DNA of 64,000 bases, taken from contig NZ_AUID01000002.1 of the NCBI RefSeq assembly GCF_000423525.1, positions 62,001-126,000 on the forward strand, read 5' to 3'. Position 1 is the stretch's first letter, and each line of letters begins with the position of its first letter. The notes beneath the pieces were generated by a model that saw only the letters and a list, made by a program, of their open reading frames with translations, was not told where the DNA came from and ran no database searches. Of the stretch, positions 38,051 to 45,473 are shown in pieces. The position numbers were made by a program, and so were the translations under genes. This DNA is from Proteocatella sphenisci DSM 23131. GTDB lineage: Bacteria; Bacillota; Clostridia; Peptostreptococcales; Filifactoraceae.

Positions 38051-38563
38051 TTAGTCTAAGTGTACATATAAGCAGTTTATTATTTTTGAAACTGCATCTT
38101 CTTGGCTCATATCATTTACAATTTCAATATCTGAATACATCTCATACAGCTCGCGCCTTTCCTCATACAGGCGGTATACTTTTTCTCTTCCACCTGACAG
38201 AAGTGGCCGATTTTCAATATTAATGTCTTTTACTATTTCTTCTACCGGTCTGTTGATATAAATGATTATGCCATTTTGTTTAAGGATTTCTATGTTTCTT
38301 TGTTTTTTTACTATGCCTCCGCCTGTTGAAATTACCTTTGGGTATGTTTTTGAAATTTCTTCCAGAGCGCATGTCTCTATTTCTCTGAAATAGTCTTCTC
38401 CCTTTTTAAATATTTCGGGGATTGTCATCTTGCATTTTTCCTCGATATAGGTGTCTACATCACAAAATTCCAGGTCTAAGGCTTTTGCCAGTTTTTCTCC
38501 TATGGCAGTTTTCCCGCAGCCTGGCATCCCTATAAGGACAATGTTTTTAGAAATTTTCTTCAT
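38051..38563 (-). CDS. aroK: Shikimate kinase
   Basis: A 170-residue P-loop kinase phosphorylating shikimate at O3. Walker A is GMPGCGKTAIG (residues 13-23), the shikimate-binding Asp/Arg segment is CDVDTYIEEK and REIETCALEE, and STGGGIV and the LID Arg in NRPLLSGG are present. It is the last gene of the aro operon, 8 bases after aroE. Confidence 0.95.
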   Translation of the reverse strand: MKKISKNIVLIGMPGCGKTAIGEKLAKALDLEFCDVDTYIEEKCKMTIPEIFKKGEDYFREIETCALEEISKTYPKVISTGGGIVKKQRNIEILKQNGIIIYINRPVEEIVKDINIENRPLLSGGREKVYRLYEERRELYEMYSDIEIVNDMSQEDAVSKIINCLYVHLD

Positions 38564-38571
38564 AAATTCTC

Positions 38572-39384
38572 CTATACCAGCTCACCTGTTTTTATAAATA
38601 TATTTTCAACAAGGCTGTCTTTTATCTTGATATTATTCCATATCTCCTGTGATTTAACGGCCTGCCCTACAAGCATATAAAGACCATTTACAGCTTTGAT
38701 TCCATTTTCTCTTGCATATCTTAAAAACACAGTTTCACCTGGATTGTATATAAGGTCTACCGCCACTTTGAATTTTTTTATTATATCTTTTTCCACCGGC
38801 GATGCACCTATATTTGGATACATGCCTTTTGGGGTACAGTTTATTATAATATCTTTTGAATCAAGATGTTTTAGTTCTTCATATGATACCGTATTGCATC
38901 CGCCAAATTCATTCTTAATATTTGAAGAGTCTCTGCTTACTATCGTTATCTCTTTTACCCCATTGTCTGTGAGGTATTGAAGCACCGCCTTGGCTGCCCC
39001 TCCGCTTCCAAGTATCACTGCGAATTTATTTATTGTCTCGATTTGATTTTTTTTGAGAAGCATTCCAAAACCGTAGTAGTCTGTGTTAAAGCCTTTCAGT
39101 TTGTCGCCTTCAAAAAACACGGTATTTACAGCTGAAATTTTGGCCGCTTCTGGTGATATTTCGTCAAGATACTGCATTACACATATTTTATATGGTATGG
39201 TAACGTTCATTCCCTTAATTCCTGACTCTTTAAATCTATGCATGGCATCTTTTAAATCAGTTTTTTCTACTTCAAAAAGATGGTAGCTCGCGTCAAGATT
39301 CAGTTCTTCAAATATCATCTTGTGAATTGATGGAGAAAGGCTGTGTCCCAGTTTTTCTCCAAGTAAACCATAAATATGCTTCAT
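38572..39384 (-). CDS. aroE: Shikimate 5-dehydrogenase
   Basis: A 270-residue NADP-dependent enzyme reducing 3-dehydroshikimate to shikimate. The shikimate-binding start LLGEKLGHSLSPSIHK, the catalytic Lys in GMNVTIPYKICVM and the Rossmann loop LGSGGAAKA are visible. It sits 17 bases after pheA in the aro operon. The preceding enzyme, 3-dehydroquinate dehydratase (aroD/aroQ), is not in this window and must be encoded elsewhere. Confidence 0.95.
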   Translation of the reverse strand: MKHIYGLLGEKLGHSLSPSIHKMIFEELNLDASYHLFEVEKTDLKDAMHRFKESGIKGMNVTIPYKICVMQYLDEISPEAAKISAVNTVFFEGDKLKGFNTDYYGFGMLLKKNQIETINKFAVILGSGGAAKAVLQYLTDNGVKEITIVSRDSSNIKNEFGGCNTVSYEELKHLDSKDIIINCTPKGMYPNIGASPVEKDIIKKFKVAVDLIYNPGETVFLRYARENGIKAVNGLYMLVGQAVKSQEIWNNIKIKDSLVENIFIKTGELV

Positions 39385-39401
39385 CTATTTGCTCCTGTTA
39401 A

Positions 39402-40550
39402 TCAATATTTTTTGTAATTGCCAAGTATTTTGAAATAAGTGGTTCTGGTTTTTATATCTTCCACGATATTATTTACTTTCGGTTCTTTTAGATTTCCCTC
39501 AAAATCTATATGAAAGAAGTATTCCCATGATTTATTCATAATCGGTCTGGATTCAATTTTCATCAAGTTGAGCCCTTTTTCTGAGAACAATTTCAATACA
39601 TCGAAAAGCGAACCTACCTTATGCTTAACCGTCAATACGACACTGATTTTGTCTGAACACTCATCTATCTCAAGGTCTTTTCCTACAATTACAAAGCGTG
39701 TATAATTATTGCTGTTAAAGTTCAGGTTTTCCTTTAATATATCCAGTCCATACATGGCTGCCGCTCTGTCACTGGCAACGGCGGCCTTTGATTTATCGCC
39801 GGCTTCACTCACAAGTTTTGCGCTCAGAGCGGTATTGTGATATGGAATCAGTTTCCAATTTGGATAATCCCGAAAAAACTGTGCCGATTGCTGAAATCCC
39901 TGCTCATGAGAGTATACTTCCTCTATGTCATCTATGCTTGACCCTTTTACGCCAAGAAGGTTCTGTTTTACCTTAATAACTATTTCACCGTTTATATAAC
40001 ATCCGTATTTTCTCAAAAGATCATAAACTTCATTTACGCTTCCTGTCGAGGAGTTCTCTATAGGCAAGATACCGTAATCTACAATTCCCTCACTTATCGC
40101 CACAAATACATCCTCAAAATATTTGTATGCACTGGTGTTTGTTGCTTCTCCAAAATAATTAAAAAGTGCTTCTTCACTGAACGAACCATTTATTCCCTGA
40201 AAACCAATTTTTAGTGCCTTGTTGCCTGTTCGAGTTTTTAATGTTTTTTTATCTACTATGGACCGTTTTTGATTTTCCTGAATATGTTTACTTTGAAGAT
40301 CCCTGCTTATTCTCATTATATCAACAAAAAATTCTTCCATTTCCTTGCTCAGAGATTTATTGTTCAGGCTCTCGATGCTTTTTTTAATTACCTGCGCCTC
40401 TCTTTCACTGTTAAGCACTGGCATATTGTTTTTTATTTTATATTCTGCAACCCTTGCGACAATTTCCATACGTTTTTCAAAAAGCTGTGCCAGGCTCGAA
40501 TCTATTTCGTTTATTTCGTCTCTAAGTTCATTTAAATCAAGTTCTTTCAT
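39402..40550 (-). CDS. pheA: Bifunctional chorismate mutase/prephenate dehydratase (P-protein)
   Basis: A 382-residue enzyme turning chorismate into prephenate and then phenylpyruvate, committing the pathway to phenylalanine. Residues 1-90 are an AroQ chorismate mutase (ELRDEINEIDSSLAQLFEKRM). Residues about 112-290 are the dehydratase domain with GSFSEEA and the NYTRFVIVG catalytic block. The C-terminal ACT domain has the ESRP motif that binds Phe for feedback inhibition. It overlaps aroC by 4 bases, so translation is coupled. With tyrA lost from this operon, this is the only prephenate-consuming gene in the window. Confidence 0.96.
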   Translation of the reverse strand: MKELDLNELRDEINEIDSSLAQLFEKRMEIVARVAEYKIKNNMPVLNSEREAQVIKKSIESLNNKSLSKEMEEFFVDIMRISRDLQSKHIQENQKRSIVDKKTLKTRTGNKALKIGFQGINGSFSEEALFNYFGEATNTSAYKYFEDVFVAISEGIVDYGILPIENSSTGSVNEVYDLLRKYGCYINGEIVIKVKQNLLGVKGSSIDDIEEVYSHEQGFQQSAQFFRDYPNWKLIPYHNTALSAKLVSEAGDKSKAAVASDRAAAMYGLDILKENLNFNSNNYTRFVIVGKDLEIDECSDKISVVLTVKHKVGSLFDVLKLFSEKGLNLMKIESRPIMNKSWEYFFHIDFEGNLKEPKVNNIVEDIKTRTTYFKILGNYKKY

Positions 40551-41632
40551 ATTTTTGCCTCCATAAGCAGATCAAGCAGTCCAAGCGCTGTTACCGCCTC
40601 TACTACAGGTACTGCTCGCTGTACTATGCAAGGGTCATGTCTGCCTTTTATTTCAAGAATTATATTGTCCATTTTTTCAATATCTACAGTCTGCTGTTTT
40701 TTGGATATCGAAGCAGTCGGTTTGAAGGCCGTCCTGAAAACCACTGGCATTCCATTGGTTATTCCACCAAGTATACCACCGTTATTATTTGTGTATGTCT
40801 TGATTTTATCGCCTTCTACATACATTTCATCATTTACTGACGAGCCTTCCATAGCTGATATGTCAAAGCCCAGCCCAAATTCCACGCCTTTTACCCCTGG
40901 CACAGAAAACAGAAGCCCCGCAAGTGTGCTTTCAACAGAATCAAAAAACGGTGAGCCTATTCCTGGTTTAAGATTGATTACTGCGGTCTCAATTATCCCT
41001 CCCAAAGAGTCATGATTTTCTTTTGCAGTCAGGATAGCGGCTTTCATAGCTTCGCCTTTTTCATGAGAAATGACTGGGAAATCCATTATGGACAGGTCAT
41101 CCAATGTCTCTTTTTCTATATTTATGAAGTTAAAATTATCTTCGCTTATTTTTCCTATGCTCAGTATATGGCTCCCTATTACTATGCCCTTGGATTTTAG
41201 AATCTGGCTTGCAAGAGCGCCTGCAAATACAAGAGGAGCAGTAATTCTTCCCGAAAAATGTCCTCCCCCTCTATAATCGTTGAAGCCACTGTATCTTACC
41301 TTGCCTGTATAATCAGCATGTGAAGGTCTCATCTTGCTTTTTATTTCTGAATAGTCCTTAGAATGTTCATCCTTGTTTCTTATAATTGCGGCAAGCGGGG
41401 TTCCGGTGGTTTTTTCGTTAAAATATCCGCTTAATATTTCAAATTCGTCCTTTTCATCTCTCTGAGTTGAGAGAAGATTTCTTCCTGGCGCTCTTCTTTT
41501 CATTTCTCTTTTGATTTCATCTATGTCCAGTTCCAGTCCCGAAGGCAGGCCGTCTATCGTTACTCCAATGGCTGATCCATGTGATTCTCCAAATATTGAA
41601 ACCTTGATGTTTCTACCCCAAATTCCACTCAT
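40547..41632 (-). CDS. aroC: Chorismate synthase
   Basis: A 361-residue FMN-dependent enzyme eliminating phosphate from EPSP to give chorismate. The three family blocks are GESHGSAIGV (N-terminal), the GHFSGRITA region with RPSHADYTG just before it, and FRTAFKPTASI with RHDPCIVQRAVPVVEA near the end. Its start overlaps the end of aroA by 20 bases and its end overlaps pheA by 4, giving tight coupling within the operon. Confidence 0.97.
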   Translation of the reverse strand: MSGIWGRNIKVSIFGESHGSAIGVTIDGLPSGLELDIDEIKREMKRRAPGRNLLSTQRDEKDEFEILSGYFNEKTTGTPLAAIIRNKDEHSKDYSEIKSKMRPSHADYTGKVRYSGFNDYRGGGHFSGRITAPLVFAGALASQILKSKGIVIGSHILSIGKISEDNFNFINIEKETLDDLSIMDFPVISHEKGEAMKAAILTAKENHDSLGGIIETAVINLKPGIGSPFFDSVESTLAGLLFSVPGVKGVEFGLGFDISAMEGSSVNDEMYVEGDKIKTYTNNNGGILGGITNGMPVVFRTAFKPTASISKKQQTVDIEKMDNIILEIKGRHDPCIVQRAVPVVEAVTALGLLDLLMEAKI

Positions 41633-42899
41633 GAATATTTCCTCCTAAACTTTCAAAGTCTTTCCAGAATCCCGGATAGGATTTGTTTACGGCCTCACTG
41701 TTTCTTATGATGACCGGAGATTCACACCTTGTAGAGGCAACGGCAAGCGCCATAGCTATCCTGTGATCGTTCCAGCTGTCTACTTCGCCGCCCCAGAGCC
41801 TCTCAACTCCATTTATAACGAGTCCTTCTTTGAGTTCTTCTATGTCGGCCCCAAGCTTGCGAAGTTCTTCAGATATGGCCTTGAGTCTGTCCGATTCTTT
41901 GATTCTCACCCTTGCAGCATTTATTATTCTGGTAGTTCCTTTGCTGAGTGATGCTAAAACAGTCAGTATAGGAACCAGGTCCGGACACTGGGAAGCATCT
42001 ATAACGGTTCCCTTTGTATCTGATTTATATACAGTTACAGAATCTTCATTTTCTTTAAAACAACCGCCCATCTCACGCACTATATCCAAAATAACTTTGT
42101 CGCCCTGAAGGGATTCTAGATTGAGGTTATTGCACTCAAGGCCATTCCCGATTATTCCCGCTACAATCCAAAATGCAGCCTGCGAAAAATCCCCTTCAAC
42201 GCGATAATCTCTTTTTGAATACCTTTGATTTCCTTTTACGATGAATTCTCTGTAGTCTTTGTTCTCAACCTGAATCCCATATTTTTTGAGCATATCCAGA
42301 GTCAAATCGACATATCCCTTGGATTCAAGCTCTGTTGTAATTACAATTCTTGAGTCACCGTCAAGAAGGGGAAGCGCAAACATCAGTCCAGTTATAAACT
42401 GTGAGCTTATGTTTCCTTTAAGTGGGTACTCACCGCTCTTTAAAACGCCGTCTACAGTAAGGGGCAGATGATTGTCTTCATATAAGTAATTTATATTTTG
42501 TTTATCAAACATTTCCTTGTATGGACCCAAAGGCCTTGTGGCAAGTTTCCCTCTTCCATCAAATGTTATTTTTCCTTCATCCAAAAGGGCAAGTGGTATC
42601 AAAAACCTGATTGTAGATCCTGATTCGATGCAGTCTATATACTCTCCATTCTTTTTGTCTCTTCCGCTTATCTTAAGCTCCAAAGTACCGTTCTGATCTA
42701 AAAGCTGGTCTATTTTCGCTCCAAGCACCCTCATACCGCCTATGGTAGCCTCCATATCCTCTGACATTACAAAGTCTTGAATCCTGCTCTCTCCCTCGCA
42801 AAGGGAAGCACATATTATAGCTCTGTGACACAGGCTTTTTGAAGGAGGTATTTTTACCTGACCTTTCAGATTCGATGGTTCCAGCTTTATATGTTTCAT
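41613..42899 (-). CDS. aroA: 3-phosphoshikimate 1-carboxyvinyltransferase (EPSP synthase)
   Basis: A 428-residue enzyme joining shikimate 3-phosphate and phosphoenolpyruvate. The N-terminal block PPSKSLCHRAIICASLC holds the catalytic Lys, followed by ESGSTIRFLIPLAL; the second domain has ADIEELKEG and the end block WNDHRIAMALAVAS. In the first block the glyphosate-relevant segment is SGSTIRF rather than NAGTAMR, as in class II-like EPSP synthases of Firmicutes. It lies 21 bases after aroB. Confidence 0.96.
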   Translation of the reverse strand: MKHIKLEPSNLKGQVKIPPSKSLCHRAIICASLCEGESRIQDFVMSEDMEATIGGMRVLGAKIDQLLDQNGTLELKISGRDKKNGEYIDCIESGSTIRFLIPLALLDEGKITFDGRGKLATRPLGPYKEMFDKQNINYLYEDNHLPLTVDGVLKSGEYPLKGNISSQFITGLMFALPLLDGDSRIVITTELESKGYVDLTLDMLKKYGIQVENKDYREFIVKGNQRYSKRDYRVEGDFSQAAFWIVAGIIGNGLECNNLNLESLQGDKVILDIVREMGGCFKENEDSVTVYKSDTKGTVIDASQCPDLVPILTVLASLSKGTTRIINAARVRIKESDRLKAISEELRKLGADIEELKEGLVINGVERLWGGEVDSWNDHRIAMALAVASTRCESPVIIRNSEAVNKSYPGFWKDFESLGGNIHEWNLG

Positions 42900-42920
42900 T
42901 AATTAAGTCCTTTCCAAAAA

Positions 42921-43982
42921 CTATAGATATCTCAAAATCTCTTCTTTTTTAATTTTCTTTAAATATCCGTCTCCAATTTCGCTCAGTACTACTATATTAA
43001 GGTCATCCCCATCGCTTTTTTTATCAAGGGCTATGGCCTCAAGCAAGCCTGGTTTGTCCATACCCTCTATCTTAAAGGGAAGGGAGTATTTGGTCAAAAG
43101 ACGCTTTATGGAAGCTGCAGTTCCGGCCTTTGTGATGCCTTCTTCTTCAGTTTTAAGTGTAATCGCATACATTCCTATAGCGACCGCTTCCCCGTGGCTG
43201 TACTTTTCAAAGCCATAGTACTTTTCTATGGCATGCCCCAGGGTATGTCCAAAATTAAGTACCATGCGTTCTCCTGCATCTTTCTCATCTCTTTGAACTA
43301 TGCCGCTCTTGATTTTGCAGCAGGTATAAATTATATCTTCTAATCCATTAAGAGGATCTTTTTCGACTTCCATTTCTGACAATTTTTCGAACAGTTCAGG
43401 GCTTCTTATGCAGGCATACTTTATTACCTCTGCCATGCCATCATTTAAAAATCGACTGTCAAGTGTTTTCAAAATCTCCGGGTCTATAAACACAGCCCTT
43501 GGATGATAGAAGCTCCCTATGAGATTTTTACCTCTGGGGTGATCAATTGCAACTTTTCCTCCAACGCTGCTGTCAACCTGTGCAAGCAGTGAAGTAGGAA
43601 CCTGAACATATGTTATTCCCCGAAGAAGAGTTGATGCAACAAATCCTGCAAGGTCTCCTGTTACTCCTCCCCCAAAAGCCACTATCAAATCTCCTTTTGT
43701 GATTCCAAATTCCAGAAGCTTATCGCAGACCTCGGCATATACCTCAAGGGACTTGCTCTTTTCCCCAGGCTTTATTATAACAAGTTTGACAAGAAATCCA
43801 CTGCTCAAAAGATCAGCCTCGACATCTCTTCCATACTCAGCGGCTATATTTTCATCTGTGACAACTGCAACTTTTTTCCCCTTGTATATTTTTGAGATTT
43901 CCTTACCCAGCCTTCCAAAAAGGCCTTTTTCTATATATATTGGATAATCCTTACCCGGAAGTTCTACAATTAATTCTTTCAA
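42921..43982 (-). CDS. aroB: 3-dehydroquinate synthase, TTG start
   Basis: A 353-residue NAD- and metal-dependent enzyme converting DAHP to 3-dehydroquinate. Core motifs are GGGVTGDLAGFVAS, DGMAEVIKYA (metal ligand) and VLNFGHTLGHAIE (metal-binding His). I choose TTG at 43982, which follows AAGGAG at a normal distance and gives the typical beginning LKELIVELPGKDYPIYI. An upstream in-frame ATG at 44105 would add 41 residues that look like prephenate dehydrogenase, a leftover of a deleted tyrA. Annotation pipelines may therefore report a falsely long AroB. Confidence 0.93.
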   Translation of the reverse strand: MKELIVELPGKDYPIYIEKGLFGRLGKEISKIYKGKKVAVVTDENIAAEYGRDVEADLLSSGFLVKLVIIKPGEKSKSLEVYAEVCDKLLEFGITKGDLIVAFGGGVTGDLAGFVASTLLRGITYVQVPTSLLAQVDSSVGGKVAIDHPRGKNLIGSFYHPRAVFIDPEILKTLDSRFLNDGMAEVIKYACIRSPELFEKLSEMEVEKDPLNGLEDIIYTCCKIKSGIVQRDEKDAGERMVLNFGHTLGHAIEKYYGFEKYSHGEAVAIGMYAITLKTEEEGITKAGTAASIKRLLTKYSLPFKIEGMDKPGLLEAIALDKKSDGDDLNIVVLSEIGDGYLKKIKKEEILRYL

Positions 43983-43994
43983 TTTACATGATCT

Positions 43995-44146
43995 CCTTCC
44001 ATATATCCCATTAATCTCTTTTACAATTCCCGATTTTATACCTGCTATATCAGTAATTATAGCACCCTTTTTAAAGAAATTCATATTGTCTTTTATATAT
44101 TTCACAATTTGCTCAGGATACAGGCAAATAATTACGATATCTGAAC
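43995..44146 (-). pseudogene. Remnant of tyrA (prephenate dehydrogenase) between aroF and aroB
   Basis: Directly after the aroF stop, in the same frame as aroB, the minus strand encodes SDIVIICLYPEQIVKYI, then FFKKGAIITDIAGIKSGIV. This is the internal segment of TyrA after the NAD-binding fold (typical text: DIVIICLYP...FIK...FKKGAIITDVCGIK). Both ends of the gene are missing: there is no GxGxxG start and no catalytic His domain. In clostridial aro operons tyrA lies exactly between aroF and aroB, so this is the scar of an internal deletion, not a new gene. Similarity is strongest over about 44141-44010. Confidence 0.85.
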
Positions 44147-45160
44147 CTACATCTCTCTTCCAACTGCCAGGGCAATGTACTTCAATGATTTCATAAGATC
44201 ATTGAAGTTTTCAGGTTTAATGGACTGCGCTCCATCACAAAGCGCATTTGCAGGGTCATTGTGAACCTCAATTATAAGCCCATCCGCTCCAACTGCTATT
44301 GCCGCTCTTGAAAGTGATTCAACCATCCACCATGCACCTGTAGCATGACTTGGATCGACTATAACAGGAAGGTGACTGAGCTTTTTGATAACTGGTATTG
44401 CACTCAAATCCAGAGTGTTTCTGGTGCTGGTTTCAAAAGTTCTTATTCCTCTTTCGCAAAGAATTACATCATTGTTTCCTCCAGCCATTATATACTCGGC
44501 TGACATCAACCACTCCTCTATTGTTGCCGACTGACCTCGTTTAAGAAGAATCGGTTTCTTGATTCGCCCAACTTCTTTAAGCAAATCGAAGTTTTGCATG
44601 TTTCTTGCACCAATCTGTATTATATCTACTTCTTCAACAAATTTTTCCAGCATATCTGCAGACATAAGCTCACTTACTACGGGAAGTCCGGTTTTTTCTC
44701 TGGCTTTTGAAAGCAGATCCAGTCCAGTTGCACCAAGTCCCTGGAATGAGTATGGTGAAGTTCTGGGTTTGAAAGCTCCACCTCTTAAAAATTCCGCTCC
44801 TGAGTCTATGATACTTTCTGCGATTCCAACAATCTGATCTTCAGTCTCTACCGAACAAGGTCCTGCAATTACCGCTATTTTTTTTCCGCCAATAAGTCTG
44901 CCGTTAACATCAACAATAGTATTTTCGGGATGCATAAGCCTGTTTGCCTTCTTGTAAGGCTCCATTACCTTAAGCACGTCGTCTACTTCGGGGAATGATT
45001 TTATAGAGTTTATATCAATCATTCTCGTATCACCAACTACGCATAAAACCGTCTTATTGGTACCTCTTGTTATATCAACTTCAACTCCTTTAGATTCCAG
45101 CTTTTCTTTTATTTTTTTAACCATCTCTGGTGATGTTCCTGATTTTATTATAACTATCAT
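44147..45160 (-). CDS. aroF: 3-deoxy-7-phosphoheptulonate (DAHP) synthase, type I beta
   Basis: A 337-residue enzyme condensing phosphoenolpyruvate and erythrose 4-phosphate, the first committed step of aromatic synthesis. Residues 1-70 are the ferredoxin-like regulatory domain found in the Thermotoga-type enzyme, which binds Phe or Tyr for feedback. The barrel carries IAGPCSVE, FKPRTSPYSFQGLG and DPSHATG with metal and substrate ligands. AGGAGG precedes the ATG. It is the first structural gene of the operon and lies just behind a transcription attenuator that reads Phe and Tyr codons. Confidence 0.96.
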   Translation of the reverse strand: MIVIIKSGTSPEMVKKIKEKLESKGVEVDITRGTNKTVLCVVGDTRMIDINSIKSFPEVDDVLKVMEPYKKANRLMHPENTIVDVNGRLIGGKKIAVIAGPCSVETEDQIVGIAESIIDSGAEFLRGGAFKPRTSPYSFQGLGATGLDLLSKAREKTGLPVVSELMSADMLEKFVEEVDIIQIGARNMQNFDLLKEVGRIKKPILLKRGQSATIEEWLMSAEYIMAGGNNDVILCERGIRTFETSTRNTLDLSAIPVIKKLSHLPVIVDPSHATGAWWMVESLSRAAIAVGADGLIIEVHNDPANALCDGAQSIKPENFNDLMKSLKYIALAVGREM

Positions 45161-45186: not shown

Positions 45187-45217
45187 AAAAAAACAGACTC
45201 ATTATATGAGCCTGTTT
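45187..45217 (-). terminator. Attenuator terminator of the aro operon
   Basis: Minus-strand stem AAACAGGCTCAT (45217-45206) with ATGAGTCTGTTT (45202-45191; one G-T pair) and a 3-base loop, running into a T tract to 45187, 27 bases ahead of aroF. Its 5' arm can instead pair with an upstream leader segment (45308-45299), giving the antiterminator. Confidence 0.9.
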
Positions 45218-45274
45218 TATATACAGATAATTTACATGTCCTTGGTAAGGCGAAACACGTATCTTAATTTCTCA

Positions 45275-45397
45275 TCATAAAGGGATTCCTATTTTTTTAT
45301 AGAACAAAGTGCCGTAGCTATAAAAATAAAAGCTAAAGCTAAAGCTAAAATAATAATTAAATTGTTCTACGAATCTCTTTATAGTAAGATTTTTCAT
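45275..45397 (-). CDS. Aro operon leader peptide rich in Phe and Tyr (40 aa)
   Basis: A 40-codon frame in the untranslated leader of aroF. It starts at ATG (45397) after AAAAGGAGA and ends at TGA. The middle, residues 13-28, reads FNYYFSFSFSFYFYSY; the whole peptide has 8 Phe and 6 Tyr. It has no likely function as a protein; it is a ribosome-stalling leader as in pheA or trp attenuation. Segment 1 (codons 10-12, 45370-45362) pairs with segment 2 (codons 31-33, 45308-45299). Segment 2 can otherwise pair with segment 3 (45220-45211), the 5' arm of the terminator. Stalling at Phe/Tyr codons would cover segment 1 and favour 2:3, letting RNA polymerase go on. Confidence 0.9.
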   Translation of the reverse strand: MKNLTIKRFVEQFNYYFSFSFSFYFYSYGTLFYKKIGIPL

Positions 45398-45444
45398 GAT
45401 ACTGTCTCCTTTTGGAAAGATTTTTTATTTTTGTGTTAAGGCAT

Positions 45445-45473
45445 ATTCTATATTAGTTTATTCTATGTGTCAA
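45445..45473 (-). promoter_or_regulatory. Promoter of the aro operon
   Basis: Perfect -35 TTGACA (45473-45468) and -10 TAGAAT (45450-45445) with 17-base spacing on the minus strand; start at about 45438, 41 bases ahead of the leader peptide. Confidence 0.88.

Follow-up and report, generated by a model that had tools for sequence, protein, structure and literature searches.

Very probably, the DNA in front of the aro operon of Proteocatella sphenisci DSM 23131 encodes a ribosome-mediated transcription attenuator that senses the charging of the tRNAs for phenylalanine and tyrosine and that controls the whole aromatic-pathway operon. (We refer to the entire 64,000-nucleotide stretch that was analysed as the window; all of the features that we describe are on its minus strand.) The initial annotation had already read this region as an attenuator, and that reading is supported by a conserved translated frame, by the aromatic-gene context, and by alternative RNA pairings with compensatory variation in relatives. 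The events themselves (ribosome stalling, termination, readthrough, a polymerase pause, and a role for NusG) are what we infer from these patterns. We also lean towards the view that it belongs to a large family of amino-acid attenuators, spread over Clostridia and their relatives, whose leader genes themselves specify a NusG-dependent pause of RNA polymerase, stabilised by a hairpin that has the control codons as its loop. If so, sensing by the ribosome and waiting by the polymerase would be combined in one element.

The operon begins with the gene for DAHP synthase (aroF, 44147..45160), whose product carries an N-terminal ferredoxin-like domain (Pfam PF00793 and PF18152). Downstream of it, in the same orientation, are aroB, aroA, aroC, chorismate mutase/prephenate dehydratase (CM/PDT), aroE, and aroK, in that order (38051..44105, as assigned from Pfam and open reading frames).

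Upstream of aroF is a sigma-70/A type promoter, TTGACA-17-TAGAAT (45473-45445), which matches the consensus at 11 of 12 positions. Its hexamers and spacing are identical in the nearest named relative, the congeneric Clostridia bacterium isolate INTA.CYC.035 (L031), whose DAHP synthase is 85% identical and whose leader differs by a handful of codons. A ribosome binding site (AGGAG, at about 45411-45407) lies just 5' of a leader open reading frame of 40 codons (45397-45275; stop codon at 45277-45275), which translates as MKNLTIKRFVEQFNYYFSFSFSFYFYSYGTLFYKKIGIPL and has homologues in relatives. Eight of its codons are for Phe and six are for Tyr, and 11 of these 14 fall within residues 13-28; this density of Phe/Tyr codons was not reached in any of 5,000 dinucleotide shuffles of the leader (shuffle mean 2.1). 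After the frame comes an intrinsic terminator, AACAGGCUCAU-AUA-AUGAGUCUGUU followed by a U run (45216-45187), which ends about 26 nucleotides before the ATG of DAHP synthase. The terminator is evident in the sequence and in the minimum free energy (MFE) fold despite its absence from the list of a promoter/terminator scanner that was run on the region; the scanner probably missed it because the stem can be extended into the A/U flanks. The MFE of the whole leader is -61.6 kcal/mol (z = -4.25 relative to shuffles). Thus the promoter, the ribosome binding site, the Phe/Tyr-packed frame, and the terminator before aroF are all as originally annotated.

Among 59 relatives, 48 had a homologue of DAHP synthase, and the regions upstream of these homologues contain Phe/Tyr-rich frames with a common core, WGFYF-SAGYF. 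A hidden Markov model (HMM) of the leader matched 103 of 394 genomes from the order, and a second leader profile had matches in 56 of 391 genomes from the class and 14 of 398 from the phylum. We collected 100 distinct leaders, and the class and phylum searches added 28. In total, the order, class, and phylum yielded about 120 distinct homologues of the leader, nearly all of them directly 5' of aromatic-pathway genes. Most often, the gene immediately 3' of the leader encodes DAHP synthase; elsewhere it is aroA, aroK, aroE, CM/PDT, aroQ, or the gene for a transporter that resembles sodium-solute symporters. A terminator is present in 123 of the 128 leaders. A few relatives (such as L032 and G007) have DAHP synthase and no detected leader, so the element is common among relatives and not universal. 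The initial annotation had suggested looking in related genomes for Phe/Tyr-rich peptides at this place and for compensatory changes, and both were found.

To avoid the bias of protein searches, we also searched 297 genomes, without regard to reading frame, for the DNA pattern CTGGGGCT-N(3-30)-AGCGCYRG. This gave 99 matches. In the 79 with AT-rich loops (29 of which were distinct), the total length was a multiple of three in every case, which indicates that the loops change in length by entire codons, as they should if the leader is translated. The other 20 matches were spread over the three length classes, with 4 of 20 being a multiple of three.

In the MFE fold, the leader is closed by a long outer stem (the 1:2 stem). 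Its 5' arm contains the core of segment 1, GUAGAACAA (45370-45362), which pairs with UUUGUUCUAU (45308-45299) in the inner part of the stem. This pairing had been proposed in the initial annotation, and we find it in place as part of a longer helix in the window and preserved in L031. The 5' arm continues upstream of the segment 1 core across AUAAAGAGAUUC, and the outer stem also includes GUAUC (45402-45398), beside the start codon of the leader, which pairs with GAUAC (45263-45259). The GUAUC/GAUAC pairing closes the stem across the leader in L031 as well, and pairing at the start codon would fit with low translation of the leader in the untranslated state.

The antiterminator is not where it was first placed. 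The initial annotation had 45308-45299 pairing with 45220-45211 as the 2:3 helix, but that helix has a predicted stability of just -4.5 kcal/mol here and -2.3 kcal/mol in L031. We instead place segment 2 about 28 nucleotides further 3', at UUAUGAUGAG over the stop codon of the leader (45280-45271), and we move segment 3 into the terminator, at CUCAUAUAA (45210-45202, which comprises the inner 5' arm, the loop, and the first base of the 3' arm). Pairing between these segments is stronger, at -6.0 kcal/mol for the window and -9.0 kcal/mol for L031. The helix in the window has one bulged base and a longest unbroken run of only 5 base pairs, and in L031 there are 8-9 unbroken pairs. We dropped the earlier helix because it was outscored in both genomes and because the UUAUGAUGAG/CUCAUAUAA pairing is the one that is conserved in the family.

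In most relatives, the last part of the leader frame, or the sequence immediately 3' of the frame, contains UUUCUAAUGAG or a variant of it, which is complementary to the terminator's inner arm and loop. This segment is read in three different reading frames among the relatives (as FSNE, FLMS, or FLRN). It also covaries with the terminator: the pairs include CUAAUGAG/CUCAUUAG, UCUAAGA/UCUUAGA, UUCCGAGA/UCUUGGAA, AAAUCCCUC/GAGGGAUUU, and CGGGAAACU/AGUUUCCCG. In a permutation test with 121 leaders, the mean was 16.4 when each leader was matched with its own terminator versus 13.3 when terminators were permuted (z = 12), and none of 20,000 permutations equalled the actual value. Because the MFE fold also places segment 2 inside the outer 1:2 stem, the 1:2 and 2:3 pairings are mutually exclusive. 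The proposed 1:2/2:3/3:4 logic therefore stands, with backing from the folds and from compensatory variation, and its original segments 2 and 3 do not.

The initial annotation overlooked a conserved hairpin that is nested within the outer stem, together with the pause-like signature that follows it. In the window, this inner hairpin is GCU.UAGCU(UUUAUUUUUAU)AGCUA.GGC (45339-45311, -6.8 kcal/mol), with Phe and Tyr codons in the loop. The family form is CUGG.GCU(Phe/Tyr codons)AGC.CUGG with one conserved mismatch and typically has a stability of about -6 to -10 kcal/mol; the hairpin in the window departs from this sequence but keeps the fold. We counted the columns of the hairpin and of the pause signal on the 103 of 119 leaders whose core matches the search pattern (the 16 others, which include the window's, fall outside it), and since the leaders share ancestry, these counts are of non-independent events. 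Leaving aside the conserved mismatch, 99.2% of the cells in the 103 hairpins are standard pairs. In 13 cells, both sides of a pair had changed, while 1,000 shuffles of arms between leaders gave at most 4. In 8 of 9 cases, a change from Trp (UGG) to Leu (UUG) is accompanied by a change from GCU to GCA, both of which encode Ala, on the opposite arm. Similarly, the Ser site of the core is AGC in 97 leaders and Gly in 6, and the UCN codons for Ser are never used. Judged by this codon usage, the conserved peptide core WGFYF-SAGYF is a reflection of constraint on the structure of the RNA, and we rejected a peptide-level explanation of it.

Just downstream of the inner hairpin is a putative RNA polymerase pause signal (45311-45301, as placed in the window by homology). 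If the 11th nucleotide after the base of the hairpin is numbered -1, then this nucleotide, U45301 in the window, is U in all 103 leaders. T is present at -7 in all 103 leaders, at -6 in 99, and at -10 in 91; position -8 is T or C in 100; and positions -5 to -2 vary freely. This five-site pattern is found at the hairpin offset in 84 of the 103 leaders, as compared to 2 of 1,854 other offsets. From -11 to -6, 76 of the leaders have YTNYTT and 24 have the strict motif TTNTTT, and the window has CACTTT, which is a partial and degenerate match to the family's YTNTTT. The codon that holds the invariant U may encode Cys, Tyr, Trp, Phe, or Leu, and it is a stop codon in two leaders. Since the residue varies so much and can even be a stop, the constraint acts on the base.

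A NusG-dependent pause has been described with TTNTTT at -11 to -6 of the non-template strand and with a hairpin that lies 11-12 nucleotides upstream of the RNA end (PMC12288461). The 11-nucleotide spacing from hairpin to U in the leader family (with U45301 assigned by homology in the window) agrees with this geometry. Two residues of NusG, Asn-Thr, are said to read the pause motif (PMC12288461), and the NusG of the Proteocatella genome, which reads VRNTKGVTGFVG, carries the Asn-Thr pair. We infer that the hairpin and the T-rich element together are a programmed pause that would hold the polymerase until a ribosome arrives.

Taken together, the elements suggest the following sequence of events. 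Transcription would start near 45440. The polymerase would make the inner hairpin (45339-45311) and pause at U45301, where NusG would recognise the T-rich non-template strand; the polymerase would wait there until a ribosome had bound the leader and opened the hairpin. If charged Phe and Tyr tRNAs are available, the ribosome would reach the stop codon at 45277-45275 and cover segment 2, so that the terminator (45216-45187) would form and transcription would stop. If those tRNAs are uncharged, the ribosome would stall on the Phe/Tyr cluster, over segment 1, and block the outer 1:2 stem; segment 2 would then pair with segment 3 (45210-45202), which would prevent the terminator and allow the operon to be transcribed. 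Without translation, the long 1:2 stem would capture segment 2, leading to termination. That low levels of charged tRNA-Phe and tRNA-Tyr are the signal is suggested by the codon content of the leader and by its gene context.

Attenuation might proceed without a programmed pause, if the conserved hairpin did no more than cap the 1:2 stem or bind a protein. We consider this possible but on the doubtful side. It would account for the hairpin's always being nested in a longer outer stem. Also, in the subgroup of leaders to which the window belongs, positions -7, -6, and -1 lie in the outer stem (including two of the U positions that are invariant across the family), and pairing there could explain part of the conservation of U in this subgroup. 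It would not do so in leaders whose outer stem starts further down. Across these differing outer stems, the U is still at exactly 11 nucleotides and the T's are still at -7 and -6, with free variation in between, whichever residue or stop codon results; a plain stem needs no such spacing. Under the programmed-pause reading, this spacing is the geometry of the pause itself.

Other explanations would dispense with the sensing of tRNA charging or with attenuation by the ribosome. The peptide WGFYF-SAGYF might itself stall the ribosome, as TnaC and SecM do, and possibly sense a free amino acid. That the core is recognisable across families would fit with this, but arrest by a nascent peptide is improbable given that UCN codons never replace AGC or Gly at the Ser position, that the change from Trp to Leu is coupled to a base on the opposite arm, that the loop varies by whole Phe/Tyr codons, and that the sequence 3' of the core is conserved at the RNA level across three reading frames. 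T-boxes are customary for amino-acid operons in this phylum, so one could also imagine that a T-box, a riboswitch, or a protein controls the terminator and that the short frame is incidental. However, a search of the leader region against Rfam, including Phe_leader and T-box, gave no match at gathering scores and just chance-level matches at relaxed scores (E up to 10), and the frame is conserved and rich in Phe and Tyr, which makes this very unlikely. Least credible of all is that the frame, which is conserved and has a ribosome binding site, encodes a small protein with a function of its own and lies before aroF by chance: searches of the leader peptide against Pfam and NCBIfam gave no match, its length and termini are variable, a terminator follows it, and RNA pairing explains its conserved bases. 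We thus retain the attenuator that responds to charged Phe and Tyr tRNAs.

Leader-peptide attenuation is a textbook mechanism in Proteobacteria, and for Firmicutes, T-boxes and protein factors are usually named instead. A family of Phe/Tyr attenuators as widespread as this one would make leader-peptide attenuation common in Clostridia too. Ribosome and polymerase are reported not to be always tightly coupled in Gram-positive bacteria, and if the pause reading is true, these leaders would be a testable case of their synchrony during attenuation in such bacteria. The leader family also has a short sequence signature by which regulons of the aromatic pathway could be annotated.

Attenuation by Phe/Tyr leaders at aromatic genes is of a kind that is already known. 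The attenuators of proteobacterial pheA, trp, and his operons likewise have control codons in a short leader, 1:2/2:3/3:4 pairings, and a terminator before the operon. They are from another phylum and are not related in sequence to this family, which has in addition a nested hairpin with the control codons in its loop and then a T-rich, NusG-type motif. The His leaders of Firmicutes (PMC2965389, PMC9413887) are also examples of leader-peptide attenuation of amino-acid genes outside of Proteobacteria, but they have His codons, precede his genes, are unrelated in sequence, and have no described pause element. The NusG pauses of B. subtilis trp, tlrB, and vmlR have a hairpin 11-12 nucleotides upstream of the paused end and TTNTTT at -11 to -6, as in our proposal, and the pause in the tlrB leader gives time for translation of the leader peptide; in contrast, these pauses serve TRAP binding or antibiotic-induced stalling and not attenuation by amino-acid codons (PMC12288461, PMC9226507).

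Publications of 2019 and 2021 include candidate Phe/Tyr uORFs that precede shikimate or aroF genes (PMC6429828, PMC8632094). The former, a survey of five genomes that include Clostridium novyi NT, has candidates at shikimate genes in its Fig. 6b (PMC6429828). As judged from the figure legend, these are short, contain Phe and Tyr codons, and are 5' of genes for shikimate metabolism, and they are probably, at least in part, members of the family that we describe; the main text of the survey reports no antiterminator, pause signal, or wide distribution. The uORFC-13-1 motif of Acholeplasma (PMC8632094), with which we compared the family by its description, has a uORF with Phe codons, -35 and -10 elements, a ribosome binding site, a terminator stem directly after the uORF, and aroF downstream. 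As described, it has 24 representatives (from one genus and environmental sequence) and one supported base-paired substructure, the stress is just on at least one Phe codon, and no pause element is proposed. The main text of a paper on TSS in C. difficile does not mention aroF. In the literature that we searched, which omits most subscription journals, we found no description of NusG pausing in an amino-acid leader-peptide attenuator and no earlier account of how widespread the family is, of its covarying antiterminator, or of the hairpin with NusG-type spacing.

Several leaders have unusual arrangements. Two genomes have two complete leaders in series, about 260-290 nucleotides apart, 5' of the first aro gene, which is aroF in L118 and aroA in L119. 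In both, there is a terminator-like 3' arm after the first leader too, and these pairs may be two attenuators that act in tandem. At L064 and L079, there are tandem genes for DAHP synthase, each with its own leader. In two shortened leaders (L151 and L153), the stop codon is exactly at the invariant U that follows the hairpin, so that the base is kept and the peptide ends there. In three cases (L059, L061, and L075), a protein of unknown type of roughly 220-250 amino acids is encoded between the leader and DAHP synthase. The leaders that are 5' of the transporter resembling sodium-solute symporters (L088, L092, L094, L108, L111, and L114) are at loci that adjoin a second conserved gene of about 420 amino acids or an aminotransferase-like gene, and these transporters are likely members of the regulon for the uptake of aromatic amino acids. 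Finally, elsewhere in the window, there is a raiA RNA (RF03072) at positions 293-498 on the minus strand (168 bits), which is the sole match to Rfam at the gathering level in the window.
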